Assembly: GCA_021464415.1 (NCBI GenBank)
Contig: CM038470.1
Span: 31,231,122 to 31,295,121 of the forward strand
Direction of reading: 5' to 3'
DNA: 64,000 bases
From: Lonicera japonica
Lineage: Eukaryota; Streptophyta; Magnoliopsida; Dipsacales; Caprifoliaceae
Positions 831-42,359 of this stretch are shown piece after piece. The translations under genes were made by a program, and so were the position numbers. The notes beneath the pieces are model-generated. The model was not told the origin of the DNA, did no database searches, and worked only from the letters and a program-made list of their open reading frames with translations. Each line of letters begins with the position of its first letter. Within the stretch, counting starts at the first letter, position 1.

Positions 831-1680
831 GCATGGTTCAAAGTTGCGGTTTCAGATGCCGACTCGGCCACTCAATTTTCAACTCGGATATCGGTATTTG
901 TTTCGGCGATACGCACCGATTTGTTATTTAAAAGGCCCAAAAAAATTACAAAAAAAAATATATAGAAAAATTCAAAAGTATGAGATTAATAAGATTGATC
1001 AATTAGATAATTGTAATACCATTATCTAGTCTGAATTACATAGTCTATATTGAAATACCAACATCTATCGCACTTAGTAATACAATTTAAAATCATAGTT
1101 TAATAAAAAGATAACAATAAAATTTTGTGAGATACAAATTTCTCAAATATAAGTCAATTAAATCTATAATAACGATATGGATTATACTCAATATTATTAC
1201 TCTAGGACTTCAGGGATGAGAAATGAGGATATAAAGGATGTTGAGAATTAGCGCTTGTGCAGTAAGATGAGATGAATGGCTAGATGACTCAAAAGATTGA
1301 GCCAATTTAATCAAGCAAAGACTAACAAATTACTTTGAAACAAATCAATATTTTTTTTTCAATAGTTGACAATTTAATTAAGTAAAGATTAACAAATTAC
1401 TTTGGAACAAATCAACATTTTTTTTTTCAATAGTTATCAATCTAACTAAGCTAAGCAAAGATTAACAAATTATTTTGGAACAAATCAACATTTTTTTTTC
1501 AGTAGTACCAAGTCAACTCGGAGAAATATCGATGAAATATCGCGAAATATTGGTGACTCGGTCAATTTCGGTGAAATATCACCGATTCAATGAAATACCG
1601 CTATTTACCCATATCATGTCACGGCTACCTCCATTCTAACTCGATATCGGCCGATATTTTGCCAAAATAGTTTTGCCTTT
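831..1680. repeat. Unclassified inserted repeat, copy 1
   Basis: This 850-bp segment is shared with 24,441-25,290 but absent from copies 3 and 4, which have an unrelated stretch of about 90 bp here (35,333-35,425 and about 45,531-45,610). It carries recurring short motifs (gactcgg, gaaatatcg) and three copies of a roughly 60-bp direct repeat built around aagcaaagattaacaaattac (about 1,312-1,500). I found neither clean terminal inverted repeats nor a target duplication, so no class is assigned. Confidence 0.5.
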
Positions 1681-4600
1681 TGTTAAAGGAAATTATGCAT
1701 TTCATGGATGTACAATATTATGCTTTAGGAAAATTGTTGCTTTTGCAATTAAGCGTCCTTTTTTTTTTTATCTTTTTAAATAACTCAGTATGTTTTTATT
1801 TCTTCCATTCACAAACTTTTCTCTACTACAAACGCAAAAACAAATATATGAAGTTATCTAAATTTTTTTATTCAATCATAGATTTATTATGATAGATTGA
1901 TTTTGAGAGTTAATGTAAAATTATTCTTAGAATTACTTAAAGAAGAGATAAATTTCACTTTTGACCCCTAAGGTTTATGGTTCGAGATTCACTTTGGTCC
2001 CCAATCTCCACAATGCACAAATAAAACCCTAAAATTTTAGGATGTGTTACTTTATCCAAAAGTGGACTGTTGTTCACAATATAGTAACAGAGTTGGCAGC
2101 TCCTCATGTGCATATTTGTAAGGCAAAAGAGGAAAATTACAATGATTAGCAACATTTCTATCTCATAAAGTTTATTTTGAGTTTCACTTTTTGGTACTTA
2201 ACATTTAGTTTGTTCGCAGGTGCAAGACCTCAAAGTTCAGGTACCAAAGTGAAACATGAAACAAACTTGAAAGGAAGTAAATATTGCTAATTATCATAAT
2301 TTTCCTTTTTTACATCTTACATTGATTTTCTTTCTCGTTGATTTTTTTTAAAGAACAATTCCATGTCACAAATATTAAAAAACAAGTAATTAATGTTATG
2401 GCATACTTCAAATATATTTGTGTAGGCATGTCATTTAAATGTTGTGAGATGTAAATCTCATTTATACCCAGCATGTTGCTACTTCAACTTATTGTGCATA
2501 AAAATGTTATTTGCTATCCCTTTAATTGAGAGATGGCTAATTTATTTGCTCACTTTATAAACTTAACTCATTCAAATACAAAACTTGTAGGATCATATTT
2601 AGTTATCTCAATTATATACTTTAGCAACATCTTAGCTCCGATCTTTTCTTTTTTTACATCTTTTATCATGATGTAATGCCATCAATTGAGATATTGGAGT
2701 AAATTAATGGGGATAAAATTTAACAAAATTTAGTTCAAATCGAAGAATTTTTAAAATCTTTATTTTTTCAAAAAAATTATTAGTTTATTAAGTTACTGAA
2801 CTTAAAGGTGGTTGGTTTTTCTGTGCTATGGTAGTAGTGAAGGGTAAGGTGTTTGATTATGATTATGTAGTATGAGCTACAAAAGCTACTATCTCTTATA
2901 CACATCATAAACTTTCGTTACAAAAATATTATCCATTACTTCATTATATGTAAATAATTTTATACTTAGTTAAACATAAATTAATTTTGATTGCAATAAG
3001 TATAATAAGAAATTAAATTATTACATTTTTCCTTTTAGCTTTAAATTTCTTTTCCAATGCTTCATATTTTTACCCCGTATTTTTATTCTTCATTTTTTGT
3101 CCTTTTATGTAACTATTCTGTTTTCTACTTGTCAATTAATACTATATAACTCATACATATTTTACTATTGAGATATTAGAATCTAGATTATTTTTTTGAA
3201 ATTTTTTTGAAATTTTTTTTCTACAAAAGATTCGAGAAATAATATTTTTATTGATTAAGGGTTTGTATTTGACAAAATTCTAAAATGAGTACAACTTTAA
3301 CTTTGCAATAAATGGCTAATTTTAAAATAAATGACCCACCATGCCACCATCTTCAACACATTGTACATAACAATGTTATGTGCTATCCCTTTAGAAAGAG
3401 ATGGCTAATTTATTTTGGGGACCCAAACTTAATTAATTGATTACAAATACTTAACTTTTTGTAGTGCAAATTAATATATATTACTGGAACTGATTGTATT
3501 TTTATTACCATTTTATTATTTTTAATTTGTATTATTATCATTACAAGTAATGTTCTTAATTGAGATATTGGAGAAAATTAATGGTAATAACATTCAATGA
3601 TTTCTGATTCTGATCCAGTCACAGATAAAATATTACAATGAAATTCTTCTGAAAATCATTCAATATAAAAACTCTCAAATTAATTGTTTGTCACTCAGAA
3701 TACTTCGAGCTTGGAAATTTTTTGAAAGAACTGGTGGCGTTAGAGTAGGAAAGTATTAATTGTATTCTTATTTTACTTTTTTTTTTGTTTTATAATTGTA
3801 TTAAGTTTTTATTTTACACTGTTTTCGATAAATTTATAAAAGTTTTGTATAACGACTCTAAGCTTCAACAATTCTTCTATTGTAATATAAATACTTGTAT
3901 ATATATATATATATAGATATATATTAAAAAAAAGAAGAAGAAGAAGCCTTCAAAAAGGGAAAACGGCATGTAGTTGGTCAATGGGGAACAACTAATACTC
4001 CCGTTTTTTATCTCTTCTCATATTCAAGCTTTTCATACTATAAAATCAATATGAGGAGAAATAATGAAATCAATATGCAAAAAATAATACGATAGAATGT
4101 AAACACTTATTATTGAAATAAAACTAGTTTACTTTTCTTAATAAAGATAAAATAAAATTGAGTCTTTATTTCTAAGAAGACATCTTTTAAAATATTGTCC
4201 AGTGCATAAAAATGGCCAGAACAGCCCTGATGGAGGTTTAAATTTTAGGAACAAGATTTTCTCTCTCGTTCTACAACTGCTAATTAAGATTGTTTCAAGT
4301 GGAAGAAATCAGAAATGTTGCCCATATTTTCTTACAATTAAGTTAAGACTTTGTTTTTAAAGAAAAAAATTATGTACGAATATATATTAATAACAAAAAA
4401 AACATTGGCTCACTTCAATTATGTTTGTATAGGCCTTTCATTTAATTATTGTGAGATCAATGCAAGTCTCATGACTCATCATGCTGTTAACTCCAGTACA
4501 TTGTTCATCAAAATATTATGTATTTTCCCTTTATTTGAGAGATGGCTAATTTATTCTCTAACTTGTCCTAAAAAATATACACATTTCAGACGGGTAACTA

Positions 4601-12472: not shown

Positions 12473-14155
12473 TGTAGACACTCCAATCCGTGACTCTCGC
12501 ATGAAACCTAAGAACTCTCAATAGCACCTTTTTTGAGTTTAGAATTCACCCAAAAATACTAGAAACTACTCTAGGAAGTTTGTGGCCCAACAAACCTATT
12601 CCCAGAGGGATTTGTCGTGCGACAAACCAAATTTTCGCACGACAAACCTTCAGATGTCGTACAACAAACCCCTCTAACTCAAACCATCCATTCTTTGACA
12701 TATCAGTCTTCATGGATATCACTTCAGCCGTTTGTCGCATGACATTGTCCCAAATGTTGTGCAACAAACTCCTCCGAGCAGTATAAATAGGCCAACACCA
12801 CAAAGGTTTAAGGACGGCCACTTGAATCCAAAAGAAGAGGGTTATCATATCTAAAAATCTGATTTTCTAAAGTTCAACTTATCAAGTTTTCAAGGAATCT
12901 TTGAGTTTCGATACTCGACGTCTTAGATCTCAGAGTCAAATTTCTCAACTTTATCTGAAGGAGAAAAGTCTATATTCGCCGGATCTTCTTCGGTCATATT
13001 ATATTTTCTCTTTCTTATCTTATTTATATCATCGGGAAGGTAATTAAAATTTCTTATAGTAATTAAATAAGATATTTGCGTACTTATTTTATTGTACTTT
13101 ATTTTTTAGTTATAGATTCGTTTAGAATTCTTATTTAAGCTTATTATATATACGTATTTGTTATTTTCGGAAGTACTATAAGTGAGTAGGGAGTTGGTTT
13201 GCTTGGGCCAACATAAACTGAAATCATTTACTTCCACTATCCTCAATTTAAGTTGTTTTGTAATATAGACTTCTTATATCAGTTATTTTGTCCACTTTCT
13301 AGCTGGACTAACTTATTTTCGAGTTATTATTAGTTTATTGTTTTCAAAACAAAATTTCTTTTCTAAACCTTTGTAAAACTATTTCCAAAAATCAAAAGAA
13401 GTTAAGCTTTATCGTCTAATTAAAACTATTTTCAAAACCATGACTGATAAAGTTTACTTAGGAATTAAGCTCGGATATATTATGTCTTCCATATAGACTG
13501 CAATATATATATTTGATATACTCTCCTCAAATAGTCCAATTCCATATTAAAATTAATTCTGATAAAGATCCGATCTTTTCTAAAATTAACCTAAAACGAA
13601 ATAATTGATATTGCTATCTGAGGAAACAATATCGAATCTCTCTCAATTCAAAATAGTTAAAGATAAACTTTTGTGATTAGTAATTAGACTTCGACAAAAC
13701 CAAAATATCGAATTACGGAATACAAGGTTTTTATCCCTTTCCCTGTTTTCCCAAAAAAATTAGTTTTCTTTACAAGTAGTAGACTCCTTAGTAAAAGGCA
13801 TCCAAGTTTTTCAATATATAATAAACATATAAAGCCACTAGAGACTAAAAAGGCGGAATGGGTGCCTAACACCTTCCCAAACCGTAATATAGTTCTCGAA
13901 CCCTATAAGAATCTCGATTTCGTAGACTAAACGCGTACGGATAAGGTTTGCTTTGGCCTTTACCCCTAGGCAGACTTTTTGTACGACTTCTCGTAAAATG
14001 TGCTGGCGACTTTGAACGAATCCACTTGCATTTAGAAATAGAAAATATGATTTATCTCTATAATTGAAGTGAATGAAATGACGGAATCCGTTCCGACGTT
14101 TTAGACTCCCAAACACGGGAATGAGACCCGGGGGTCGTATTTTTGAATTCTCACA
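12473..14155 (+). mobile_element. Solo LTR A (1,683 bp), LTR retrotransposon remnant
   Basis: It starts TGTAGACACTCC and ends TTCTCACA, flanked by a perfect 5-bp duplication CAAGT (12,468-12,472 and 14,156-14,160). No internal retrotransposon sequence adjoins it, so it is a solo LTR left by LTR-LTR recombination. A TATA box at 12,782 places transcription on the plus strand. Upstream of it are several copies, in both orientations, of a motif around TTTGTCGCGCGACAAA. The same insertion with the same duplication lies at 40,670-42,292, and an empty site is at 47,912-47,916. The superfamily (Gypsy or Copia) cannot be settled without internal sequence. Confidence 0.85.
12782..12789 (+). promoter_or_regulatory. 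TATA box of solo LTR A
   Basis: TATAAATA, about 310 bp into the LTR and conserved in position in the other two LTR copies. It fits the U3 promoter of an LTR. Confidence 0.6.
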
Positions 14156-15322
14156 CAAGTGCTTTAAAGATTAGATTTCTATGAGTATTAGTAAGTACAA
14201 TAATTTGATATGTACATGGATCAATGGACTTTCATCAAACAAAACATTGCAGTGTAGGATAACCAAATAACAAAGTTGGTTTCAAATATATCAAATTGGT
14301 ATGGTCAAAAGAAATTCAAGCGCGTATAAATAACGGTGATCCAGATGGGAAGGAGAAAAAAATGGTTTTCTAGACACTTCGTGTTCAGTTATTGTGGGCT
14401 GAATATATGTACACCTTTATCTAGATACGTCCTACTCATTTAACCCATTTTCATCATATCATTTTTTTGCGCATAAAGTAAGTAATTTAAATTAACTTAT
14501 CTTAATTTACACAATATATACTACATTATTGTGGAGATTGTAAGAAATTTGATTTTATTAATCCAAGATTGCATCAAGTGGAAGAATTCAAAAATATACC
14601 CCTCCTTTACTTCAGATAAGTTAGACTTTTGTGTTTAAAGAAAAGTCAATGTTAAATAATAAAAAATATACCACATTAAGTAAGCTGAAGATTTTTGTAT
14701 GCACGTGCATGATATAACAAAATTAATTTTTAAATGATAATAAAAATAATACTTGTAATAATACTTAAACTCCCCACCTTAAACACGAAGAACATATATA
14801 TTATCACCACGTAACCAAATATCAACAAAATTTTAAACTCTATATAATATTAATAATTATTAAGTATAATATTAGATATGCATGGAATGTAGTTACATAC
14901 ATTCTAGTATATGTATGGGTCACTTTAAATATGTTTGTGCAGGCATGCCATGTAAGTCATCTTGTGAAATGTAATCATGACCCATTATGCCACTATCTTC
15001 AACACATTGTGCATAAAAATGTTATGTGCTATCCCCTTTATCAAGAGATGACTAATTTATCTTGCTTACCCAAACTTAATTAATTTGTTACAAATTCATA
15101 ACCTTTTCTAGTATAAATTAATATATATTACTGGAATTGATTATATTTTTATTATTTTTATTTTTTATTATTATCGTTGCGAGCAAATAATGTTATTAAT
15201 TGAGATATTAGAGAAAATTAAATGATTACCGTTTTTACGGTCACATATTGAATATTGTAATGAAATCCTTATGAGAATTATTCAATACAAAATCTCTCAA
15301 ATCGTAATTATGTTAAATAACC
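14156..15322. repeat. Block B, copy 1, part between the two solo LTRs
   Basis: Aligned with 42,293-44,170 once the hAT insertion there is removed, and with parts of 31,920-32,440 and 47,917-48,880. Non-coding. The empty site of the hAT element is at 14,215-14,222 (CATGGATC, single copy). The last five bases (TAACC) flank solo LTR B. Confidence 0.75.
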
Positions 15323-22580: not shown

Positions 22581-23621
22581 GCTTAATTATATATGTCGAT
22601 GCGTGCAATTCGGTTGTTGGTCTTAGTGTTTGAAATAGTAGGTTATCATACTCCGGATTAAAGTTTGAATCCCTCTCTCTTTTTCTAAAAACTACTAGAT
22701 CTATCATTGTTAGTCTCAAAACAAAATAAATTATGTTGAGGCGTGCGTAAGATGACAGGCCTTTTCCTTGCCTAAAAACAAATTTAAGCTCCATTGCTCC
22801 TGTTTAGGCACCCACTTCGATGAAATTCGTTCATACCGACCTCCCTTAGTCCTTTGTCAAAGTTCTTTGTTCAGTAAGAATACATTAATTTAAAATATCC
22901 TATTATCGCCAAAGCAAAATATTTTTATCAAAGCAATTTTTATTTAAATGAGCAAAAAAATCCCTGCAATCCTTTGTGTCATCGAGCTTTATTGCAAGCA
23001 TAAGGACTTCTGTTATTTTTTTTTTGGTCAATTTGGACAAAAGTTGCTATGGCAAGAATATTTTAATTAAGAGACAATTTTTTGTTTTGCTGGTATTTTA
23101 AGAGACATTTGAAAATTTCAAACTTAACAAATTAAAGCCATGACTACACTTTCCAGACTCCAGTGCACGACTTCCTTCTCTCTCTCTCTCTCTCTCTCTC
23201 TCACAGTTTCTTCTCCATTTTATTTCTCACTTCTCCGTCTGACTCTAGCTCACACGACAATGCCACGCCACGATCATGCCCATAGCCCACTATTTTTCTA
23301 GGTATATTTTTTAGATCTACTTTTAAAAATTATAAATTACTTTATTGTTTGATTACTTGCATAATATTAGTTTTATTTCTTTATTAATTGCATAATATTA
23401 AGTGTATATCTTGAACTATTGATTTTTGGTTGAATTTGGTGATTTAGGTCTAAACCCCTACTTGTTAAATATTATATTAATTATATTGTTGATTAATTGT
23501 ATTATAGTAGTTGTATTTCTTTATTAATTACATAATATTAAGTGTATTTCTTGAACTACTGTTGATTAATTATTGAAACTTTTGTGATTTAGGTCTAAAT
23601 TCTTAATTTTTGAATATTAGT
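22581..23621. other. Junction region with (CT)n and a short tandem duplication
   Basis: 22,870-23,070 is another copy of the segment at 21,305-21,500 and 44,800-45,000. 23,177-23,202 is a (CT)n tract. 23,376-23,474 and 23,513-23,619 are two related stretches of about 100 bp, each with tttattaatt-cataatattaagtgtat and gtgatttaggtctaaa; the second ends gaatattag, a plausible intron end directly before the hAT exon. Confidence 0.5.
23177..23202. repeat. (CT)n microsatellite
   Basis: About 13 CT dinucleotides. Confidence 0.9.
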
Positions 23622-23803
23622 TATTAACGAGATTTCATTGCAATGAATATCGTAAACGGTACACTATGCAACTGAATGGGAGAGACGAATTTATGAATGA
23701 TTGTTGGCTGACATACATTGAACAAGATATTTTCAATAATATTGACAAAGAGGAAGTGTTGCAATACATCCAAAATATGAAAAATCATAGAATATTATTG
23801 TAA
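23622..23803 (+). pseudogene. hAT-type transposase terminal exon, copy 2
   Basis: After an AG at 23,620-23,621 the frame runs open to TAA at 23,801-23,803 and gives about 60 aa resembling the C-terminus of plant hAT transposases, with the Met-Asn-Asp-Cys-Trp-Leu-Thr-Tyr-Ile-Glu core and a basic end. Unlike copy 1 it has no frameshift. No upstream hAT exon (BED zinc finger or dimerisation core) is visible nearby, so this is an isolated fragment. Family call from recalled resemblance. Confidence 0.45.
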
Positions 23804-24440
23804 TTTATCGTAATTGTTTGCATTTGCTATTTGAGTTGTATGAACTATTATTATTAATACTATTATGTTTGCATTAAAATTTTAAGGCTTTAAATATGAT
23901 TTAGTTTGCTTTGAATTTTGACCAAATTTCGCCTCCTGTTAGTCCAATTCCTTGGCTTCACCACTGCATGCATTGATATATATATATATATATTTTTTAA
24001 AAAATGAACTCTTAATTTGAGATTTAATTAGATTTTTGATTTAGTTTCTTAGCTTGTGCTTATATTTTATTAGTCCAAAAAAATAAAATAAAAATCCCCA
24101 TCGGGAGAGAATTAAGGAGCCACAGCATAACCATAAATTTTATCAAAGGGGGCAAGTTTACTACTAGTTTAGCAAAAACACCCGGATCTGCTTAAAATCA
24201 TGGCCGACTTGACCTGAACTAATTCAAAGAAGGTTAACTTTCAAAACCTACAACCACCCCATTTACATATGCATGACCCAAACCCTACTAGCCTTGTCAA
24301 TCCGTTGTAATTATACACAAGTAAATTTGTACAAGGAAATAAATTATATTAGGGTCAGTTCAAATTTTACAAACTAATTTATCTGAACTCAAACTCAAAC
24401 AAACCTGAGCCATACTTGTATTTTAAAACATCTATCCATC
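23804..24440. repeat. Block A, copy 2, proximal part
   Basis: Very close to 173-830; the two share even the 850-bp insertion that follows, so they descend from a more recent duplication than copies 3 and 4. Confidence 0.75.
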
Positions 24441-25290
24441 GCATGGTTCAAAGTTGCAGTTTCGGAGGCTGACTCGGCCACTCAATTTTCAACTCGGATA
24501 TCGGTATTTATTTCGGCGATACGCATCGATTTGTTATTTAAAAGGCCCAAAAAATTACAAAAAATATATATATAGAAAAATTCAAAAGTATGAGATTAAT
24601 AAGATGGATCAATTAGATAATCGTAATACCATTATCTAGTATGAATTACATAGTCTATATTGAAATACCAACATCTATCGCACTTAGTAATACAATTTAA
24701 AATCATAGTTTAATAAAAAGATAAGAGTAAAATTTTGTGAGATACAAATATCTCAAATATAAGTCAATTAAATCTATAATAACGATATGGATTATACTCA
24801 ATATTATTACTCCAGGACTTCAGGGATGAGAAATGAGGATATAAAGGAAGTTGAGAATTAGCACTTGTGCAGTAAAGATGAGATGAATGGCTAGATGACT
24901 CAAAAGATTGAGCCAATTTAATCAAGCAAAGACTAACAAATTACTTTGAAACAAATCAATATTTTTTTTTCAATAGTTGACAATTTAATTAAGTAAAGAT
25001 TAACAAATTACTTTGGAACAAATGAACATTTTTTTTTCAATAGTTATCAATTTAACTAAGCTAAGCAAAGATTAACAAATTATTTTGGAACAAATTAACA
25101 TTTTTTTTTCAGTAGTACCAAGTCAACTCGGTGAAATATAGGTGAAATATCGCGAAATATCGGTGACTCGGTCAATTTCAGTGAAATATCACAGATTCAA
25201 TGAAATACCGCTATTTACCCATATCATGTCACGGCTACCTCCATTCTAACTCGATATCGGCCGATATTTTGCCAAAATAGTTTTGCCTTT
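24441..25290. repeat. Unclassified inserted repeat, copy 2
   Basis: Second copy of 831-1,680, with scattered substitutions and small indels. Confidence 0.55.
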
Positions 25291-26170
25291 TATTAAAGGA
25301 AATTATGCATTTCATGGATGTATAATATTATGCTTTAGGAATATTGTTGCTTTTTCAATTAAGCGTCCTCTTTTTTTATTTTTTTAAATAACTCAGTATG
25401 TTTTTATTTCTTCCATTAATTCTTCTTAGAATTACTTAAAGAAGAGATAAATTTCATTTTTGACCCCTAAGGTTTATGGTTCGATCTTCACTTTGGTCCC
25501 CAATCTCCACAATGCACAAATAAAACCCTAAAATTTTAGGATGTGTTTCACTTTATCCAAAAGTGGACTGCTGTTCACAATATAGTAACAGAGTTGGCAG
25601 CTCCTCGTGTGCATATTTGTAAGGCAAAAGAGGAAAATTACAATGATTAGCAACATTTCTATCTCATAAAGTTTATTTTGAGTTTCACTTTTTGGTACCT
25701 AACATTTAGTTTCTTCGCAGGTGCAAGACCTCAAACTTCAGGTACCAAAGTGAAACATTAAACAAACTTCAAATTAAGTAAATATTGCTAATTATCATAA
25801 TTTTCCTTTTTTGCCCCTTACATTGATTTTCTTTCTCGTTGATTTTTTTTAAAGAACAATTCCATGTCACAAATATTAAAAAACAAGTAATTAATGTTAT
25901 GGCACACTTAAAATATATTTATGTAGGCATGTCATTTAAGTGTTGTGAGATGTAAATCTCAATTTTTCCCATCATGTTGCTACTTCAACTTATAGTGCAT
26001 AAAAATGTTATGTGCTATCCCTTTAATTGAGAGATGGCTAATTTATTTGCCGACTTTATAAACTTAACTCATGCAAATAAAAAAATTTGTCTGATCGTAT
26101 TTAGTTATTTAGCTATCTCAATTGTTTTAGTAATTAACATCTTAGCTCCGATCTTTTCATTTATATCTTT

Positions 26171-26214
<44 letters not shown>

Positions 26215-26850
26215 TATTTTATTATTTTATCATTTTAATTTTGTATTACTATCATTAATTATTGCATGACTGTAATGCAATCAATTGAGATATTAGAGTA
26301 AATTAATGGAGATAAAATTTAATAAATCCCAATGTCTAGATATTTAAAAAAATTAATATATCTATTTTTTTTTTGCTATTATGATCAATCGCTTCTACTC
26401 GAAAAGTTGAAGGAAAAGAATAAATTAGAAATTTGACAGTATTGTCTGTATGATTCATTACAAGAGAATAAATCAAATTAAATATAACAACGTAGAAGTG
26501 GTTTATCATTTATATATTTAACAAAATTTAGTGGACATCTAGCAATTTTTATAATCTTTATTTTTACAAAAAAGTTTATTAGTTTATTAAGTTACTGAAC
26601 GTAAAGGTTTTGTTTGTTTTTTGTTTTTTTGGTGTTTTTTATTATTATTATTTCTGATAGAAGGGTGTTTGATTATGATTATGTTGTATCTTATATCATA
26701 AACTTTCATTACAAAAATATTCTCCATTGCTCATTATATAAGTAAATAATTTTATACTTAGTTAAACATAAACCAATTTGGATTGCAATCACTATAATAG
26801 TTAGTTTAATTACTGCGTTTTTCCTTCTAGCTTTAAATTTTCTTTTCCAG
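25291..26850. repeat. Block A, copy 2, part left of the copia element
   Basis: Aligned with 1,681-3,057 and 35,425-38,038. A (TA)n tract at 26,176-26,210 produces spurious Tyr-Ile ORFs. The last five bases (TCCAG, 26,846-26,850) are the left target duplication of the copia element. Confidence 0.7.
26176..26210. repeat. (TA)n microsatellite
   Basis: About 17 TA dinucleotides. Confidence 0.9.
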
Positions 26851-27119
26851 TGTTAAATTATACAACACAAGAAATAGAGAAATTATATTAATGAGCAAGA
26901 AATCCACAAGGGGTTACATTGTTACAATCTCACATCTTCTTTACAATGGGGAAAGGCCCTATATATATACAAGGCAAGAGGCTAAAGAACATAACATAAT
27001 TACATGGCAAATGATGAAAGAAAACAACATAATTGCATTACACCTCAAAAGAACATGGAAGAACATGGAGAGGGAATATACACATCAAAAGAACATGGAG
27101 AGGATATATTCTTTTAACA
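26851..27119 (-). repeat. 3' LTR of the copia-type element
   Basis: 269 bp, plus-strand tgttaaattatac to attcttttaaca. Matches the other LTR base for base by eye. The ORF on its plus strand is spurious and is repeated in the other LTR. Confidence 0.92.
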
Positions 27120-27134
27120 CCCCCCCTCAAGCTG
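27120..27134 (-). other. Polypurine tract
   Basis: Minus-strand reading cagcttgaggggggg, immediately upstream of the 3' LTR, in the place and style of Ty1/copia plus-strand primers. Confidence 0.8.
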
Positions 27135-27411
27135 AAGGAGGCTCTTAGGGATCCGAAGCTTGGATACGAGAAAATGGAATTTGGTTTTGGTTGTTTGACA
27201 TGTTTGATTTGACCGGCAGACGGAACGGCGATAACTGGAGCCGACGGAACGGCGAGGTCCGGTGTAGAATTTTCGGAAGAGTAGCAGTGGTGCTAGTAGT
27301 CAATGATGGCCCTTTCTTTGGTTTTGGTTTTAGAGAGATAAACTGAAGTTTCGATATGAGAGGCGAGAGGTTTCCGAGGGTGTTGGCGGTGCGGAAGGAA
27401 GGGAACACACA
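27135..27411 (-). other. 3' non-coding part of the element interior
   Basis: Between the last open frame and the polypurine tract. It contains an 87-codon open stretch rich in Ser, Pro, Thr and Lys (27,145-27,408) with no recognisable domain, probably former 3' UTR or gene tail. Confidence 0.35.
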
Positions 27412-27785
27412 TTATTGAGATAAAAAAGAGAAAGGCGATGGATTCTGAGAATCATCAGCACCAAAATTCAAGATATCAGTGAAGTTAGAAGCAGAGAGCG
27501 AATTGTATCCTATATCTCCTAAGGTAGTCCAATCCGGAGTCATTAATCCAGCAACCTCCGCAACAGAACTAATTTGAGGAGACCCCTTTGAGAAACCATC
27601 CAAAACAACTTGGTAATCTGACAGAGTCGGATATGCCGGCATATCCACTGCTGTCAGAGGATCCCCGTGTTCTGAAAGATTCACGGTCGGTAGATGGATA
27701 TCAGGGGTTTATGAAAGGAGCTTTAAAAAACTTTTGTAGTGAGGATGCTCCAACAAATCTTCCTGGGTCGGAAGAACCCCAGGTT
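27412..27785 (-). pseudogene. C-terminal coding remainder of the LOB-domain gene
   Basis: In a frame one base off that of the LOB domain, the sequence stays open from the 129-bp repeats through this stretch except for one TAA at 27,709-27,711, then runs for 99 codons to a TAG at 27,412. The product is acidic with Ser/Thr/Asp-rich parts and no known domain. A single missing G at about 28,559-28,561 explains the frame difference: with that base present in register, LOB domain, repeats and this tail share one frame. So this is the natural C-terminus, now separated by a frameshift and one nonsense codon. Confidence 0.55.
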
Positions 27786-28985
27786 CTAGAGGATTCTCTG
27801 AGGGGCCATATGGAGAAGCGAAGGAGCCTGGTGGGTGAGCAAGGGAGTCGGATGGATTGGCCCTTGAGGAACTTGCAGGAGGGTTAAAGGAGCCAGGTGG
27901 AGAGGCAAAGGAGCCGGATGGGTGAGTAAAGGAGCCGGATGGAGAAGCGAAGGAGCCTGGTGGGTGAGCAAGGGAGTCAAATGGATTGGCCCTTGAGGAA
28001 CTTGCAGGAGGGTTAAAGGAGCCAGGTGGAGAGGCAAAGGAGCCGGATGGGTGAGTAAAGAAGCCGGATGGAGAAGCGAAGGAGCCTGGTGGGTGAGCAA
28101 GGGAGTCGGATGGATTGGCCCTTGAGGAACTTGCAGGAGGGTTAAAGGAGCCAGGTGGAGAGGCAAAGGAGCCGGATGGGTGAGTAAAGGAGCCGGATGG
28201 AGAAGCGAAGGAGCCTGGTGGGTGAGCAAGGGAGTCAGATGGATTGGCCCTTGAGGAACTTGCAGGAGGGTTAAAGGAGCCAGGTGGAGAGGCAAAGGAG
28301 CCGGATGGGTGAGTAAAGAAGCCGGATGGAGAAGCGAAGGAGCCTGGTGGGTGAGCAAGGGAGTCGGATGGATTGGCCCTTGAGGAACTTGCAGGAGGGT
28401 TAAAGGAGCCAGGTGGAGAGGCAAAGGAGCCGGATGGGTGAGTAAAGGAGCCGGATGGGTAGGCAAATGACCTGGAGGCTGGAGATTTCTCTGGCAGTTT
28501 TCCGGTCGAACGGTGGCGGCGTCGACCAGAGCCGGATGGAGAAGCGAAGGAGCCTGGTGGTGAGCAAGGGAGTCGGATGGATTGGCCCTTGAGGAACTTG
28601 CAGGAGGGACAAAGGAAAATGACGGATTAACCCTGGGAGACTCGCTGTCCAGTCGAGCCTCCAACGCCGTCATTCGTGACTGCAGAGCCTCAAGCTTTTG
28701 ATCAAGAGAGGTAAGGAGGGCAGCGCATCCACCAGCAGGATTTAGGATTCTTGCCTTAGCTTCAAAGAGAAACGAATCGAGAGTTTCACGATGTTTGTGA
28801 TCCGGTACGTGTTGTAAAAAAAATTCAACACTTTTTACCCCGAAAACGGAAAAGATTGTGTGATAATCTCGACGATGATACGCATTTGGAAAGATTTTAA
28901 CTGATTCACAAGAAGGAGGACAAGCTCTGCGGCGAAAAGAGCAGGCAGGACATGGAGTACCTCGCTGGCGGATGCTGATCGACAT
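27786..28985 (-). CDS. LOB-domain (LBD) protein captured by the retroelement, 399-aa frame
   Basis: LBD proteins are plant-specific transcription factors of organ-boundary and gametophyte development. The ATG at 28,985 is preferred over the in-frame ATG at 29,162 because the family starts just before its zinc-finger-like motif. Residues 12-26 are Cys-X2-Cys-X6-Cys-X3-Cys, the LOB signature; residues 45-57 match the GAS block (Phe-Gly-Val-Lys-Ser-Val, as in LBD22/27-type members rather than Phe-Gly-Ala-Ser-Asn-Val); residues 82-87 match the Asp-Pro-Val-Tyr-Gly-Cys region; residues 91-112 form a Leu heptad coiled coil (91, 94, 98, 101, 105, 108, 112). No intron interrupts it, as expected after reverse transcription. 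From about residue 142 the frame runs out of register through a 129-bp repeat, giving a Leu/Pro/His-rich tail that is probably an artefact of one missing base. Sense orientation to the element. Confidence 0.75.
   Translation of the reverse strand: MSISIRQRGTPCPACSFRRRACPPSCESVKIFPNAYHRRDYHTIFSVFGVKSVEFFLQHVPDHKHRETLDSFLFEAKARILNPAGGCAALLTSLDQKLEALQSRMTALEARLDSESPRVNPSFSFVPPASSSRANPSDSLAHHQAPSLLHPALVDAATVRPENCQRNLQPPGHLPTHPAPLLTHPAPLPLHLAPLTLLQVPQGPIHPTPLLTHQAPSLLHPASLLTHPAPLPLHLAPLTLLQVPQGPIHLTPLLTHQAPSLLHPAPLLTHPAPLPLHLAPLTLLQVPQGPIHPTPLLTHQAPSLLHPASLLTHPAPLPLHLAPLTLLQVPQGPIHLTPLLTHQAPSLLHPAPLLTHPAPLPLHLAPLTLLQVPQGPIHPTPLLTHQAPSLLHMAPQRIL
27806..28458 (-). repeat. 129-bp coding minisatellite, about five units
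   Basis: Units are exactly 129 bp (43 codons): gcctggtggg recurs at 27,826, 27,955, 28,084, 28,213 and 28,342. Two variants alternate (ggagccgg and aagaagccgg types), so the real amplification step was a 258-bp dimer. A further partial unit at about 28,530-28,612, nearest the LOB domain, lacks one G (ggtggtgag). In the register of that partial unit the repeat encodes a Ser/Pro/Gly-rich 43-mer; in the register now joined to the LOB domain it encodes a Leu/Pro/His-rich one. Confidence 0.9.
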
Positions 28986-29490
28986 GGCTGTTTGTATTGG
29001 ATTTGAATGGGAGATTTGCAGTGAGGATGGTGCTATTGGGTGATTTGCAGTGAGGATGGTGTGTTTTGATTTTAATGGCAGGAAGCTGGTGAAAGGGTTA
29101 AAGGCGCCGATCTCGAAATTTGAATTTCGAATTTCGAGGTCAGAGCAAAAAGATGTCGGCATTTGATGATGGCGAGGGTTTGGAGTTTACGGAATTTGCG
29201 GGTTGTCGGTTATGGTATGGATTAGGGGTTGTCGGTTATGGTATGACTTAGGAAATGGACAGTGTTGCTTGGGATTGACGGAGGAGAGAATCGGGAAGTT
29301 GAACGAGTGGATGAGTGGTGCAATGAGATCAACGGCTCTTGATGTTAGAATAGGAAAATAAGAAGGTTTAGGGGCTAGAATAGAAATATCAGAAAGTACA
29401 GGGGTGAAATTGTAAATATATCTGACGGTGTCTGGAATATTCCGTCAATTCTGACGGCAAGCAAACGGCGTTAACCGCTGACGTGGCTGA

Positions 29491-29817
29491 CACGTGACTG
29501 ACACGTGGCGCTGACTGGATGTCACGTGGCGGACACGTGGCGCTGACTGGATGCCACGTGGCGCTGACTGGATGTCACGTGGCGGACACGTGGCGCTGAC
29601 TGGATGCCACGTGGCGCTTACTGGATGTCACGTGGCGGACACGTGGCGCTGACTGGATGCCACGTGGCCCTGGCGTGGATACCACGTGGCGCTGACTGGA
29701 TGTCACGTGGCGGACACGTGGCGCTGACTGGATGTCACGTGGCGGACACGTGGCGCTGACTGGATGCCACGTGGCACTGACTGGATGTCACATGGCGCTG
29801 GCGTGGCTGACACGTGG
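29491..29817. promoter_or_regulatory. G-box/ABRE-type minisatellite: 18 CACGTG in about 330 bp
   Basis: Tandem array built on CACGTGGCGCTGACTGGATG (20 bp) and a longer form with an extra tcacgtggcgga, combined in places into 53-bp units (29,522 and 29,575). I count 18 CACGTG hexamers, most within ACGTGGC, the core of abscisic-acid response elements bound by bZIP factors; CACGTG is also bound by bHLH factors. It lies between the 5' LTR and the LOB ORF. That it acts as an enhancer is inference. Confidence 0.75.
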
Positions 29818-29884
29818 CGCTTGTGTGTCAATGATGTGGCAGTTGCAGTTTGTAAGGAAATAGAGGAAAAATAAAATGCTATTA

Positions 29885-29950
29885 GTAGGAATCGAACCTT
29901 GCACTAAGCTGTGGTTACCTGATGGTCTTGCCAGCCAGGCTGAATGCTTC
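29885..29950 (-). other. Possible tRNA- or SINE-derived stretch
   Basis: The minus strand contains GGTTCGATTCC (29,888-29,898), a perfect match to the RNA polymerase III B box (T-loop), preceded about 35 bases upstream by a weaker A-box-like cctggctggcaaga. No full cloverleaf could be folded by eye, so it is not called a tRNA gene. Confidence 0.25.
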
Positions 29951-30153
29951 AATAATAATTATTTGGACGTGGTTTTATTTGAACAGGTTTGCTGCGTAAA
30001 GTCTGATTCGAGTAGTGTTTGGAGGCGTATTTGATTTGTTTGATAATGGTGATAGGTGTGGTGGCTTGGTGGCGAGGTTGTGTGGTGGCTGGTGGTTGGT
30101 GGCGAGGTCGTGGTGACTAGTGGCGAGGTCGTGGTGGCTAGTGGCGAGATTGT

Positions 30154-30165
30154 GCTCTGATACCA
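30154..30165 (-). other. Primer-binding site (initiator tRNA-Met)
   Basis: Minus-strand TGGTATCAGAGC directly abutting the 5' LTR, complementary to the 3' end of plant initiator tRNA-Met, the usual Ty1/copia primer. Confidence 0.9.
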
Positions 30166-30434
30166 TGTTAAATTATACAACACAAGAAATAGAGAAATTA
30201 TATTAATGAGCAAGAAATCCACAAGGGGTTACATTGTTACAATCTCACATCTTCTTTACAATGGGGAAAGGCCCTATATATATACAAGGCAAGAGGCTAA
30301 AGAACATAACATAATTACATGGCAAATGATGAAAGAAAACAACATAATTGCATTACACCTCAAAAGAACATGGAAGAACATGGAGAGGGAATATACACAT
30401 CAAAAGAACATGGAGAGGATATATTCTTTTAACA
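30166..30434 (-). repeat. 5' LTR of the copia-type element
   Basis: 269 bp, ending on the minus strand in ...TTTAACA directly before the PBS. It holds a TATA-type sequence at 30,275-30,284. Confidence 0.92.
30275..30284 (-). promoter_or_regulatory. TATA box of the 5' LTR
   Basis: TATATATATA followed on the minus strand by gggcc, about 150 bp into the LTR; also at 26,960-26,969 in the 3' LTR. It would start transcription toward the PBS and the LOB ORF. Confidence 0.5.
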
Positions 30435-32745
30435 TCCAGCACTTCATATATATTTTTGTTCGGTATTTTTCCTTCGTTCTTCATTTTCGTCCTTTCATAT
30501 AACTTTTCTCTTTACTACACGTCAATTAATACTATATAGCTTGTACATTTTTATTATTGGGATATTAGAAAATGGGGCTTTTTTGAATTTTTTTTTCGGG
30601 TCAATTTAGACTTAGGTACTCCCACAATGGACGAAATTAGACTTAGGTATTCTTTCGTTTCAAAATTAAACTTTAATACAAATTCTGTCAATCTCCGTCC
30701 AAAATTAATGGGCACGTGATTTGCACGTGCCTTTAACCCACCAAATCCACCTATAGTTAACATTTTCAAGAAAAAAAATGGAAAATAAATTAATTCAGCA
30801 ACACCACACACAAAAGAGTGAGGGGAGCTTCATCTTCTTCCTCCATTATCATACATCTCCATTGCCACACATATCCACCACCCATACCTATCATTTCTTC
30901 ATGAACTGCTGCCATTTTTTTTCTTTTCATGCCACTTTTTTACCTGATTCTATATTCTTATTTTAGATTTTTTTTAGTTACATAATTATATTAAGTTCTT
31001 TATTTTTTCACTTTTTCGATAAATTTATGAAAGTTTTGTATTTTTTTTTTAAATTTTGAAATTGGCAAACATTAATAAAAAAAATTATAGTAGAAACACT
31101 CTAAGCTTCAACAATTCTTCTTCTGTCATATAAAGACTTGTACATCAAATAACCAAATTACAATAATTAACTGGAAGTAAAACGTCGAGAATGTGGGACC
31201 TCAAACGTAGATACCTATAATTAACACACATCCAATGACCATACAAAATCATTTAATTGAAATCGACATTGATAGAAAAATACAACAACAACAACAAAAA
31301 AAAAAAATATTATGTATTATCCCTTTATTTGAGAGATGGCTAATTTATTTTCAACTTGCCATAAATAAATACACTTTTCAGATGGGTAATTATGTTAATT
31401 ATTTAGCTAATTTAGGAATTAGGTTATTAGGTATGCATGAATGATTGCATTTTTATTATAATTTTATTTTCATATTATTATCATTGTTTATAATTACCTA
31501 AATGTAGTGTATTTACTGAGATATTGGTGTAAATTATTAGTGATATAACAAATAACAGATGAGTTAGCACTAAAAGTAATTTTACTTGAAAGTTACATTA
31601 TTATGGGTAAAGTTTTATTTTAGAGATACAATACTTATAAGATTTAGAAATAGTAATAGAGATATAGTAATAGAGATTATGCGCGGATTGAAAGAAAATA
31701 AGGAAGACATAATTCGGAACCTGTTATGGATCAAATAATTTTGTTTTAATAAAAAAATTCTATGAATATTGTAAGTGGCTTAGTATATATATTATTTTTA
31801 TTTAGTTATATTTTAATTATTTTTAATTAAATTAGTAGTAATTATGTTTATATATATATATATATATATATTAAGAAGATTGATTGAAATAGTATTTTGA
31901 TAGGAAGTTATTTGAAATTTTGATATTACAAAATTACTCTTTATATGATAATAAAAATAATGTTAATTGGTAATAATACTTAAACTCCCGACCTTAAACA
32001 TGAAGAACACATATTACCACTATACTTAACCAAATATCAATACAATTTTAAACTCTATATGATATTAAAAATTATTAAGTATAATATTAGACATACATAT
32101 GTAATTATACACATTCTAGTATATGTATGGGTCACTTTAAATATGTTTTGTGTAGGCATGCCACGTAAGTCTTGTGAAATGTAATCATGACCCATCATGC
32201 CACTATCTTTAACACATTGCGCATGAAAATGTTATGTGCTATCCCTTTTATCAAAGAGGTGGCTAATTCATCTTGCTGACCCAAACTTAATTAATTGATC
32301 ACAAATGCATAACCTTTTCTAGTACAAGTTAATTAATATATATTACTGAAACTAATTATATTTTTATTATTTTAATTTTATATTATTATCGTTGCTAGCA
32401 AGTAATGTTATTAATTGAGATATAAGAGAAAAATAAATGTAATCAGTTTAATTTTATTACATTTATTACCTTTTCTAGTACAAGTTAATATTTCTTTTAT
32501 TAGCTTGCCACATGGGCTTTCTCTCTTCTCAATATTTTAATAAAATTTTAAAATGCAATAACTTTAAATACAAATTATGGATTCTAATAAAAATTACTCA
32601 TCAATACCTATAAATCAAGATCAATTGTAATTATAAGATTATGTATAAAAGATTAAAAAAAATGCATAAAAATAATATCTATCATATGTTGGTATCTTAT
32701 TGGCTTTTTCAAATTTTACACGGGAGTTTACAAAACTACGATTTG
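30435..32745. repeat. Blocks A and B, copy 2, right of the copia element
   Basis: 30,440-31,880 aligns with 38,039-40,340, except that 30,597-30,960 is a different sequence (acttaggtactcccac and so on), perhaps a replacement. 31,860-32,745 aligns with block B but lacks the part equivalent to 40,385-43,545, including the solo LTR, and a second part equivalent to about 44,060-44,540. The empty site of the CACTA element is near 32,639. Non-coding; a (TA)n tract lies at about 31,849-31,871. Confidence 0.65.
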
Positions 32746-35069: not shown

Positions 35070-38000
35070 TTAATTTTGACCTGAACTAGTTCAAAGAAGG
35101 TTAACTTTGAAAACCTACAACCACCCCATTTACATATATATGCATGACCCAAACCCTCCTAGCCCTGCCAATCCATTGTAATTATACACAAGTAAATTTG
35201 TTCAAGGCAATAAATTATATATTCCAGTCAGTTCAAATTTTAAAAATTAAATTTATCTGAACTCAAACTCAAACAAACATGAGCCATACTTGTATTTTAA
35301 AACATCTACCCATTGCGATTGAAAAAATTAATACCCATCCCCTTAAGGTCAGGTTAGTCTAAAATCTGTGGGATTGAATCTTTTTACCATCCTTGTAATT
35401 GAGAATATATATTTTGCTTTTTATTAAAGGAAATTATGCATTTCATGGATGCACAATATTATGCTTTAGGAATATTGTTGCTTTATCAATTAAGCTTCCT
35501 ATTTTTCTAAATAACTTAGTATATTTTTATTTCTTCCATTCACAAAGTTTTCTCTATCACAAACGCAAAAACAAATATATAAAGTTTTCTAATTATTTTT
35601 ATTAAATCTTAGATTTATTATGATAGATTGATTTTGAGAGTCAATATAGAATTATTCTAAGAATTACTCAAAGAAGAGATAAATTTCACTTTTGGCTCCT
35701 AAGGTTTAGGATTCGAGATTCACTTAATTTGGTCCCTAATCTCCACAATGCACAAATAAGACCCTAAAATTTTAAGATGTGTTTCACTTTATCCAAAAGT
35801 GGACTGTTGTTCACAATATACTAACAGAGTTGGCAACTCCTCGTGTGCATATTTGTTAGGCAAAAGAGGAAAATTAATTACAATGATTAGCAACATTTCT
35901 ATCCCATAAAGTTTATTTTGAGTTTCACTTTGGTACCTAACATTTAGTTTGTACGCATGCAGGTGCAAGACCTCAAACTTCAAGTACCAAAGTGAAACAT
36001 TAAACAAACTTCAAAGGAAGTAAATATTGCTAATTATCACAATTTTCCTTTTTTTGCCCCTTACATTGATTTTCTTTCTCATTATTTTTTTTAAAGAACA
36101 ATTCCAGGTCACAAATATTAAAAAACAAGTAATTAATGTTATGGCACACTTCAAATATATTTGTATATACATGTCATTTAAGTGTCGTGAGATGTAAATC
36201 TCATTACCCATCATGTTGCTACTTCAACTTATTGTGCATAAAAATGTTATTTGCTATCCCTTTAATTAAGAGATTGCTAATTTATTTGTTCACTTTTTAA
36301 ACTTAACTCATTCAAATACAAAAACTTGTAGGATCATAATTAGTTATTTAGTTATCTCAATTATTTTAGTAACATCTTAGCTCTGATCTTTTCATTTTTT
36401 ACATCTTTTTATATGATGATGTAATGCAATCAATTGAGATATTGGAGTAAACTAATGGGGATAAAATTTAACAAAATTTAGTTCAAATCTAAGAATTTTT
36501 AAAATCTTTATTTTTTCAAAAAAATTATTAGTTTATTAAGTTACTGAACGTAAAGGTGGTTGGTTTTTCTGTGCTATGGTACTAGTGAAGGGTAAGGTGT
36601 TTGATTATGATTATGTAGTATGAGCTACAAAATGTACTATCTCTTATATCATAAACTTTCGTTACAAAAATATTCTCCATTACTTCATTATATGTAAATA
36701 GTTTTATACTTAGTTAAACATAAATTAATTTTGATTGCAATAAGTATAATAATAAATTAAATTATTACATTTTTCCTTTTAGCTTTAAATTTCTTTTCCA
36801 ACGCTTCATATTTTTCTTCCGTATTTTTCTTTTATTCTTCATTTTTCCTCCTTTCATGTAACTATTCTGTTTTCTACTTGTCAATTAATACTATATAACT
36901 CATACATTTTTCACTATTGAGATATTATAAAATATAATTTTTTTTTGAATTTTTTTTCTACAAAAGAATTGAAAAATAATATTTTTATTAATTAAGGGCT
37001 TGTATTTGATAAAATTTTAAAAGGAGTACAACTTTAACTTTGTAATATATATATATATATATAAAGCAGCATTCTAAAGGAGAAAACAGCGTGTATTCGT
37101 TCAATGGAAACAACCTCTTCTCATGTTTTTTCTCTTCCCATATTCAATATGAGAAGAAATATTGAAATCAATTTGCAAAAATTAATATGATTGTATATAA
37201 ACTCTTATCATTAAAATAAAACAAATTTTCCTTTTTAATTAAAAAAAATTGAGTCACTTATTTCTTAGAGGATATCTTATAAAATTTTGATCAATGCATA
37301 AAAATGGTCAGGACAGCCCTGATGGAACTTTAAAGTATATACCTTTTATTTTATACAAAAATTATATTTTTATTATTTTATCATTTTAATTTTGTATTAC
37401 TATCATTAATTATTGCATGACTGTAATACAATCAATTGAGATATTGGAGTAAATTAATGGGGATAAATTTTAATAAATCCCAATATCTAGATATTTAAAA
37501 AAATTAATATATCTATTTTTTTTTTGTTTGTTATTGTGATCAATCACTTCTACCAAAAAAATTGAAGGAAAAGAATAAATTAAGATTTTACATGCTTGTC
37601 TCTATGACTTATTACAAGGGTATGATTTATTACAAGGGAGAATACATCAAATTAAATGCAAGATCGAAGAAAGTAGTTGATCATTTATGCATTTAATAAA
37701 ATTTAGTTGACGATAATTGATAACTAATCTTACCTAGCAATTTTTTGGAATCTTTATATTTTTTTAAAAAATATTAGTTTATTAAGTTACTGAACATAAA
37801 TTGGTTGGTTTTTTGTAGAAGCAGTGAGTTTTTTTATTATGATTATGTAGTGTGAGTTACAAAATGTACTGGCTACCTCTTATTTCATAAACTTTTATTA
37901 AAAAAATATTCTCCATTGCTTCATTATATATGTAAATAGTTTTATACTTAGTTAAACATAAATTAATTTGGATTGAAATCACTATTTAATAAGTTTAATT

Positions 38001-40669: not shown

Positions 40670-42292
40670 TGTAGACACTCCAATCTGTGACCTCCGCAAG
40701 AACCCTAAAAACTCCTTATAGCGCCTTTTTTGAGTCTAGAACTCACCCAAAACTAATGGAAACTGCTCTGGGAAGTTTGTGGCCTAACAAACCTATTCCC
40801 AGAGGGATTTGTTGTGCGACAAACTCCTCTGACCCAGACCATCCAATCCCTGACATATTAGTCTGTCAGGGACACCACTTCAGCTATTTGTCGCACAACA
40901 TTGTCCTAAATGTCGCGCAACAAACTCTCCCGAGCATTATAAATAGGCCAACATCCCAAAGGTTTAAGGACGGCCACTTGAATCCAAAAGAAGAGGGTTA
41001 CCATCTCTAAAAATATGATTTTCTAAAGTTCAACTTATCAAATTTTCAAGGAATCTCCGAGTTTCGATACTCGAAGTCTTAAATCTCAGAGTCAAATTTC
41101 TCGTCTGTATTTGAAGGAGAAAAGTCTATATTCGCCGGATCATCTTCGGTCATATTATATTTTCTCTTTCTTATCTTATTTATATCATCAGGAAGGTAGT
41201 TAAAATTTCTTCTAGTAATTAAATAAGATATCTTCGGTCATAATATATTTTCTCTTTATTTTTTAATTATAGATTCGTTTAAAATTCTTATTTAAGCTTA
41301 TTATATATACGTATTTGTTATTTTCGGAAGTACTATAAGTGAGTAGGGAGCTGTCTTGTTTGGGCCGACATAAACTGAAATCATTTACTTCTATTATCCT
41401 CAATTTAAGTTGTTTTGTTATATAGACTTGTTATATCCGTTATTTAAGCTTATTTTCGAGTTACTGTTAGTTTATTGTTTTCAAAACAAAACTTCTTTTT
41501 GAAACCCTAATAAAACTATTTCCAAAAATCAAAGGAAGTTAAGCTTTATCATCTAGTTAAAACTATTTTCAAAACCCGGACTGATAAAGTTTACTGAGGA
41601 ATTAAGCTCGGATATATTCTGTCTTCCATATAAGCTGTAATATATATCTAATACATTCTCCTCAAATAGTCCAATTCCATATTAAAATTAATTCTGATAA
41701 AGATCCAATCTTTTTTAAAATTAACCCAAAACGAGATAATTGATATTGCTATATGAGAAAACAATATCGAATCTCTCTCAATTCAAAACAGTTAAAGATA
41801 ACTTTTTGTCATTAGTAATTAGACTTCGACAAAACCATAACATCGGATTACGGAATACAAGATTTTTTTATCCCTTTCGCTGTTTTCCCCAAAAAATCAG
41901 TTTTCTTTACAAGTTGTAGACTCCTTAGTAAAAGGCATTCAACTTTTCCAATATAGAATAAACATATAAATTCACTAAAGACTGAAAAGGCGGAATGGGT
42001 GCCTAACACTTTTCCAAACTGTAACATAGTTCCCGAACCCTATAAGAATCCCTGTTTCATTGGCCAAACGCGTAAGGGTAAGGCTTGCTTTGGCCTTTAC
42101 CCCTACGCGGACTTTTTGTACATTTTCTCGTAAAATGTGTCGGCAACTTTAAACAAATCCACTTGTATTTAGAAATAGAAAATATGATTTATCTCTATAA
42201 TTGAAGTGAATGAAACGTCGGAATCCGTTTCAACGTTTTAGACTCCCAAACACGGGAATAAGACCCGAGGGTCTCATTTGCGGATTCTTACA
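40670..42292 (+). mobile_element. Solo LTR C (1,623 bp), same insertion event as LTR A
   Basis: TGTAGACACTCC to TTCTTACA, flanked by CAAGT (40,665-40,669 and 42,293-42,297). Flanks and duplication are the same as at 12,473-14,155, so the LTR was inserted once and then duplicated with its block. Differences from A are substitutions and short deletions (for example in the palindromic gacaaac region near 40,815). Confidence 0.85.
40938..40945 (+). promoter_or_regulatory. TATA box of solo LTR C
   Basis: TATAAATA at the position conserved in all three LTRs. Confidence 0.55.
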
Positions 42293-42359
42293 CAAGTGCT
42301 TTAAAGATTAGATTTCTATGAGTATTAGTAAGTACGATAATTTGATATGTACATGGATC

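Follow-up and report, generated by a model that had tools for sequence, protein, structure and literature searches.

How does a gene for a plant transcription factor come to lie between two identical long terminal repeats (LTRs)? The question is raised by a 64,000-nucleotide stretch of Lonicera japonica DNA, called the window below, whose minus strand carries at positions 26851-30434 an LTR element of 3,584 bp with an open reading frame (ORF) of the LBD family, that is, one with a LOB domain. The answer that we reach is that this element very probably belongs to a non-autonomous family of honeysuckle LTR elements, recently active and present in many copies, that carries a long LBD ORF in sense orientation and is mobilised in trans.

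The element and its LOB protein

Read in its own direction, the element begins with a 5' LTR and a leader with a tandem array; the LOB ORF and a linker of 43-codon tandem repeats follow, then a C-terminal block, before the 3' LTR closes it. An earlier note, drawn from the bare sequence, had reported 269-bp LTRs without differences, and indeed the 5' LTR (30166-30434) and the 3' LTR (26851-27119, TGTT...AACA, also recognised by LTR matches elsewhere in the genome) are identical at 269/269 positions. Comparison of the flanks gives the target-site duplication TCCAG on both sides, at 26846-26850 and 30435-30439. The primer binding site TGGTATCAGAGC (30154-30165), which we take to match the initiator methionine tRNA, adjoins the 5' LTR directly. 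At the other end, GAGGGGGGG, the polypurine end of the internal region, stands directly before the 3' LTR, which is adjoined by the polypurine tract TGAGGGGGGG (27120-27129); a G-run closes the internal region in 21/21 elements of the family described below. The duplication, the primer binding site and the polypurine tract that the note had listed are all present, and together with the paired TG...CA repeats they identify an LTR retrotransposon. It is a non-autonomous one: in the window copy, searched as 13 translated pieces, Pfam detects LOB alone, and no gag, protease, reverse transcriptase, RNase H or integrase, so that a sense-oriented LOB ORF does replace gag-pol, as had been proposed; the elements fetched from the genome measure 2.1-3.9 kb. 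The note had also called the element copia-type; a Copia element would be told by integrase ahead of reverse transcriptase in its pol, or by a linked autonomous Copia partner, and no pol was found in this one. Rfam reports nothing at gathering score in the window.

The LOB domain (28665-28955, minus strand like all features of the element, residues 70-166 of a 458-amino-acid (aa) ORF) matches Pfam PF03195 with 72.7 bits (E 3.8e-20), above the cut-off of 24.2, which places it in the LBD/LOB family. The LBD class I signature is LX6LX3LX6L after the GAS block. The earlier note had announced the cysteine signature of LOB, an equivalent of the GAS block and a leucine-heptad coiled coil. The cysteine signature, CX2CX6CX3C, stands and begins at LOB residue 12; an exact match to the leucine pattern is absent, residues 94-101-105-112 reading L-L-M-L with a methionine for the third leucine. 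By sequence, wheat Ramosa2 (5ly0) is a solved relative (E 5.1e-16); barley HvRA2, to which we return, is presumably an LBD gene of the same Ramosa2 type. The AlphaFold2 model is weak (predicted local distance difference test, pLDDT, 70.7; predicted template-modelling score, pTM, 0.46), and its top match in the Protein Data Bank (PDB) is also 5ly0, with E 2.4e-4, template-modelling (TM) scores of 0.42/0.49 and a root-mean-square deviation of 9.3.

Judged from the sequence, the start codon is likely to be at 28985, and not the first ATG of the 458-aa ORF at 29162, because the closest relatives, proteins P0001 and P0002, begin at the corresponding codon. Frame comparison shows that the 399-aa ORF read from there (27786-28985) leaves the frame of the family inside an array of five 129-bp (43-codon) repeats at 27810-28458, which in the family frame encodes a Ser/Pro-rich linker. 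The C-terminal block (27412-27708 with its stop codon, 27415-27708 without), 95% identical to that of P0001/P0002, is cut off by an in-frame stop directly before it. Given the frame change and this stop, the window copy does not encode the full protein.

A dispersed family with shuffled repeats

Is the window element alone of its kind? The genome searched comprises 886,079,548 bases. With the LTR as query, the best 40 of 927 candidates were scored and 40/40 match, the two LTRs of the window among them; the 20 best matches (L009-L028) and the window make up 21 LTR-picked elements. A second sample holds the best LOB matches (L029-L058), with longer views, numbered L059-L066, of L030, L031, L032, L034, L035, L036, L040 and L049.

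The LTR-picked elements are 2.1-3.6 kb in size. The primer-site word TGGTATCA is present in 21/21, LOB DNA in 20 (L024 and L025 hold its first 125 nt only) and the C-terminal block in 19. Perfect 5-bp target duplications, all mutually different, flank 19 of the 21. The earlier note had proposed a dispersed non-autonomous family, to be established by a genome search that would find several copies with distinct target duplications and the LOB ORF inside each; the search returned dispersed copies with distinct target duplications, nearly all with LOB DNA. The insertions are also young: over 20 LTR pairs (L028 excluded, gaps not counted) there are 14 mismatches in all, about 0.26% per site. With the substitution rate of 1.3e-8 used for LTR dating, this corresponds to about 0.1 million years, in a sample biased to good LTR matches. 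In the window itself, the identical LTRs and the intact target duplication agree with the recent insertion that had been claimed. Both the existence of the family and its recent mobility are thus strongly supported.

A single unbroken ORF spanning LOB domain and C-terminal block is found in 11 of the 21 LTR-picked elements, 8 of them encoding exactly 438 aa; of the other 10, 9 have it broken or lacking and one overruns its end. When the 29 LOB-picked loci are added, the full ORF is present in 31 of 49 copies with a LOB start (L029, the same copy as L022, and L013, which has no LOB, stand outside this count), and its length is 362-438 aa in many copies. In a genome-wide LOB search, the best 150 of 1,715 candidates are all 98-100% identical to the window over 127-129 residues, and a stop falls within the matched piece in one of the 150. 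Because scoring took the best candidates, the family has at least 150 copies, and the figure is no gauge of how intact the average copy is. With at least 150 near-identical LOB copies in this genome, and 85 of 87 protein relatives being annotated proteins of Lonicera macranthoides, the proposed multiplication of LOB-like ORFs is supported, and LBD counts would be inflated by it; the family should be masked before LBD genes are counted in honeysuckle genomes.

The family is not uniform in its repeats. In L059, L060 and L062-L066 the same LBD gene lies in elements whose LTRs are of a second type, with another U3. Of the 29 LOB-picked loci L030-L058, 28 match the window LTR only over its 3' part, and L041 does not match it at all; typing assigns 18 of the 29 to the second type and none to the window type, 6 being ambiguous in U3 and 5 untyped. 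Among the eight loci fetched in full, LOB DNA is 99.5-100% identical, LTR pairs (278-291 bp) are present in seven, and six of those seven have target duplications. Two R/U5 variants are each paired with both U3 types, so that all four combinations of U3 and R/U5 are seen. Site counts used gap-free copies only, 39 in the pooled LTR- and LOB-picked set and 14 of the 21 in the LTR-picked set; among the 39, every possible pairing of the variants at two coding sites is present as well. The shuffled segments would be most simply explained by template switching between RNAs packaged together, and recurrent transitions could contribute to the combinations of coding sites.

The history that we propose would then run as follows. 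The LBD part would have derived long ago from a host LBD gene. The RNA of the element would be packaged, copied and inserted by the proteins of an autonomous element; because different element RNAs would share particles, template switching would mix U3, R/U5 and gene. Such an element would need no intact ORF in cis, and the protein, if of use to the element, would act in trans. Several observations weigh against this picture. No autonomous partner was found, no search beyond the fetched elements having been made. Matching target duplications are missing in L022, whose 3' end is altered, in L028, whose 5' LTR is truncated, and in L065; L061 has no 3' LTR within the fetched stretch. Finally, both samples were chosen as best matches, which biases the observed youth and intactness.

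Passenger, regulator or host gene

The rival that survives best, with chances that come close to even, accepts the family and denies its protein a role: the LBD ORF would be a passive passenger, captured once, that looks intact only because its copies are recent and have recombining masters in common. The ratio of nonsynonymous to synonymous polymorphism, pN/pS, is 0.77 over the 14 LTR-picked copies (25 variable sites), which is close to the expectation for young unconstrained copies. The variants common to at least 2 of the 39 copies, 7 synonymous, 6 nonsynonymous and 1 stop, likewise indicate no strong constraint, and the 10 of 21 LTR-picked copies without a clean full ORF point the same way. 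Moreover, broken forms have transposed: the ORF end with the changed frame is found in both the window and L009, most of LOB is gone from L024 and L025 alike, and each of these copies has its own target duplication; an intact ORF is thus apparently not needed in cis. The near-identity of the LOB copies might seem to speak for selection. However, the LOB of L022 is identical to that of the window at all 387 nt although their LTRs differ by about 3%, and since synonymous sites too are identical across LTR lineages, low LOB divergence is explained by exchange, and we rejected it as direct proof of selection. On the other side of the balance, only two coding variants occur in more than two copies and both are synonymous, in a set whose LOB-picked part was chosen for unchanged LOB protein; and in diverged relatives, whose LOB identity is mostly 50-60%, the zinc cysteines, heptad helix and C-terminal block are largely kept.

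These relatives come from a search with E up to 1e-6, in which the 7,998 candidates with most shared words were scored. It gave 87 proteins, 85 of them named L. macranthoides, to which a further search added P0088; another search gave 19 proteins. The relatives combine a LOB domain with a variable linker and a C-terminal block, the last recognisable in many beyond P0001 and P0002, and in the 20-sequence set A2 every zinc cysteine is present in 90% or more of the members. Host genes may account for this conservation, the relatives being known here as proteins only. Two of them, P0070 and P0088, come from European Nucleotide Archive (ENA) contigs and are 61% identical to each other, P0070 being mostly 36-43% identical to the listed Lonicera proteins; they possibly represent an older or non-Lonicera lineage. 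A scan of viral contigs with pattern A1 gave 24 pattern stretches and no relative, in a collection that may omit records close to the genome of the window.

If the protein does have a role, it could be that of a trans-acting activator of its own or a helper family through the LTR or the leader array, in the manner of a viral transactivator; we regard this as doubtful. In its favour, a LOB domain joined to a conserved acidic-hydrophobic C-terminal motif, the last of the block, whose pattern matches 48 of the 88 relatives, would resemble an activator. The leader array (29476-29821) concentrates CACGTG hexamers, or G-boxes, with 18 in 346 bp against 9 in the remaining 60.3 kb of the window. The array is also variable: the hexamer count is 11-24 in the window and L009-L022, 15 copies in all, and the other six LTR-picked copies, L023-L028, have 2-8; it is 0-21 in the LOB-picked copies, and 0-24 over all copies examined. 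However, CACGTG is a site for bHLH and bZIP proteins, and GCGGC, the binding core of LBD proteins, is absent from the array and the LTR. Full ORFs also accompany 0-3 hexamers in the LOB-picked L041, L047 and L048, and long arrays are present in each of the tree's two LTR clades, so that growth of the array may be due to slippage or exchange; an expanding enhancer is the other possible reading. The fullest version of this idea, in which the captured LBD gene became the family's own trans-acting transcriptional activator, was kept as such in Lonicera and regulates the family by way of recombining U3 promoters and an expanding G-box array, is quite improbable; if true, it would mean a private transcription-factor network spread through the honeysuckle genome.

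Could most of the Lonicera relatives instead be ordinary host LBD paralogues, the lineage of the window alone being mobile? Types such as P0003, P0006 and P0007 are indeed known here as proteins, without LTR context. Yet one cluster of relatives alone has 22 member sequences, and in several gene models unrelated domains are joined on, an outcome to be expected of dispersed insertions; we consider this reading unlikely. The L. macranthoides gene models in question, P0017, P0036, P0045, P0060, P0066, P0076 and P0087, join stretches of this LBD protein to domains that, going by their Pfam numbers, we take to be ABC, 2OG-Fe, BTB, PPR, transposase-like, glycosyltransferase and TIR-NBS; insertions in or near genes, or annotation chimeras, would give such models.

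There is virtually no chance that the window holds a resident LBD gene between two separate LTR insertions, or LTRs of different elements: a look-alike is known in barley, where HvRA2 is flanked by two BARE elements in the available part of PMC5333098, but here the LTRs are identical, the target duplication matches, primer binding site and polypurine tract are in place, and the same layout with different target duplications at 19 of 21 sites excludes chance pairing and separate insertions alike.

Other repeats share the window. Between 49948 and 63360, a unit of about 2,067 bp is repeated head to tail about 6.5 times with 98.5-99.4% identity; each unit contains inverted arms of 784-788 bp, about 93-95% identical, and the ORFs of 113-125 aa at 50.8-62.1 kb fall within these arms. 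Dispersed long repeats pair 1-1809 with 23619-25417 (96% identical), 1667-3310 with 35409-37047 (90%) and 12655-14222 with 40810-42359 (89%).

Comparison with known systems

Gene capture by LTR elements usually appears as scattered fragments, and maize Bs1 is the classic gene-transducing LTR element. Large retrotransposon derivatives (LARD) and terminal-repeat retrotransposons in miniature (TRIM) resemble the present family in being short, devoid of gag-pol and mobilised in trans; they are noncoding, whereas here many copies carry an ORF of 362-438 aa.

In the literature on LBD/LOB, gene capture, LTR elements with extra ORFs and Lonicera genomes, the titles and opening parts of abstracts describe no LBD gene inside an LTR element. 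As far as the texts are available, the terms 'lob', 'lateral organ' and 'lonicera' are absent from the main text of a 2026 review (PMC13317346), 'lbd' and 'g-box' from PMC12786077, and 'lbd' and 'lateral organ' from the Lonicera oblata genome paper (PMC13195435), where 'lob' occurs 5 times, in gene names where viewed. The accessible main text of a survey of genes captured by LTR elements in rice and sorghum likewise contains no 'lob' (PMC3726574). A survey of 121 genomes lists, in the part available, 15 non-canonical domains, all in Gypsy and none in Copia elements, with no LOB (PMC9289625); because that screen started from reverse transcriptase, it would miss the present element.

Extra protein domains kept by many copies are described in the available parts of two sources: the 5'aORF of sunflower Tekay, kept in 500 of 523 group 2 elements (PMC11728184), and the AlkB domain of an orchid Gypsy (PMC9289625). 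The likeness ends there, since those extra ORFs stand beside gag-pol or reverse transcriptase, and this one stands without gag-pol. With LBD factors such as wheat Ramosa2 (5ly0), the protein shares the zinc cysteine motif and the LOB sequence profile, the fold match being weak; it differs in its diverged LOB, its Ser/Pro tandem linker, its own C-terminal block and its position inside LTRs. Barley HvRA2 between its two BARE elements, as the same portion of PMC5333098 has it, has the elements as its neighbours and does not lie within one.

What sets the honeysuckle case apart is that a young and dispersed family, with intact ORFs in many copies, carries a protein of transcription-factor type, C-terminal block included. 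Two ideas become testable here: that a plant retroelement may encode its own transcriptional regulator, and that such elements may be a route by which a host transcription-factor family is inflated. A close parallel lies in the non-autonomous LTR elements with transduced genes, which, in the accessible text of PMC3726574, have LTRs, primer binding site and polypurine tract around a host-derived coding sequence, and no gag-pol; the present family differs from them by a whole two-block ORF resembling a transcription factor, by its many intact ORFs, and by being young, high in copy number and recombining.

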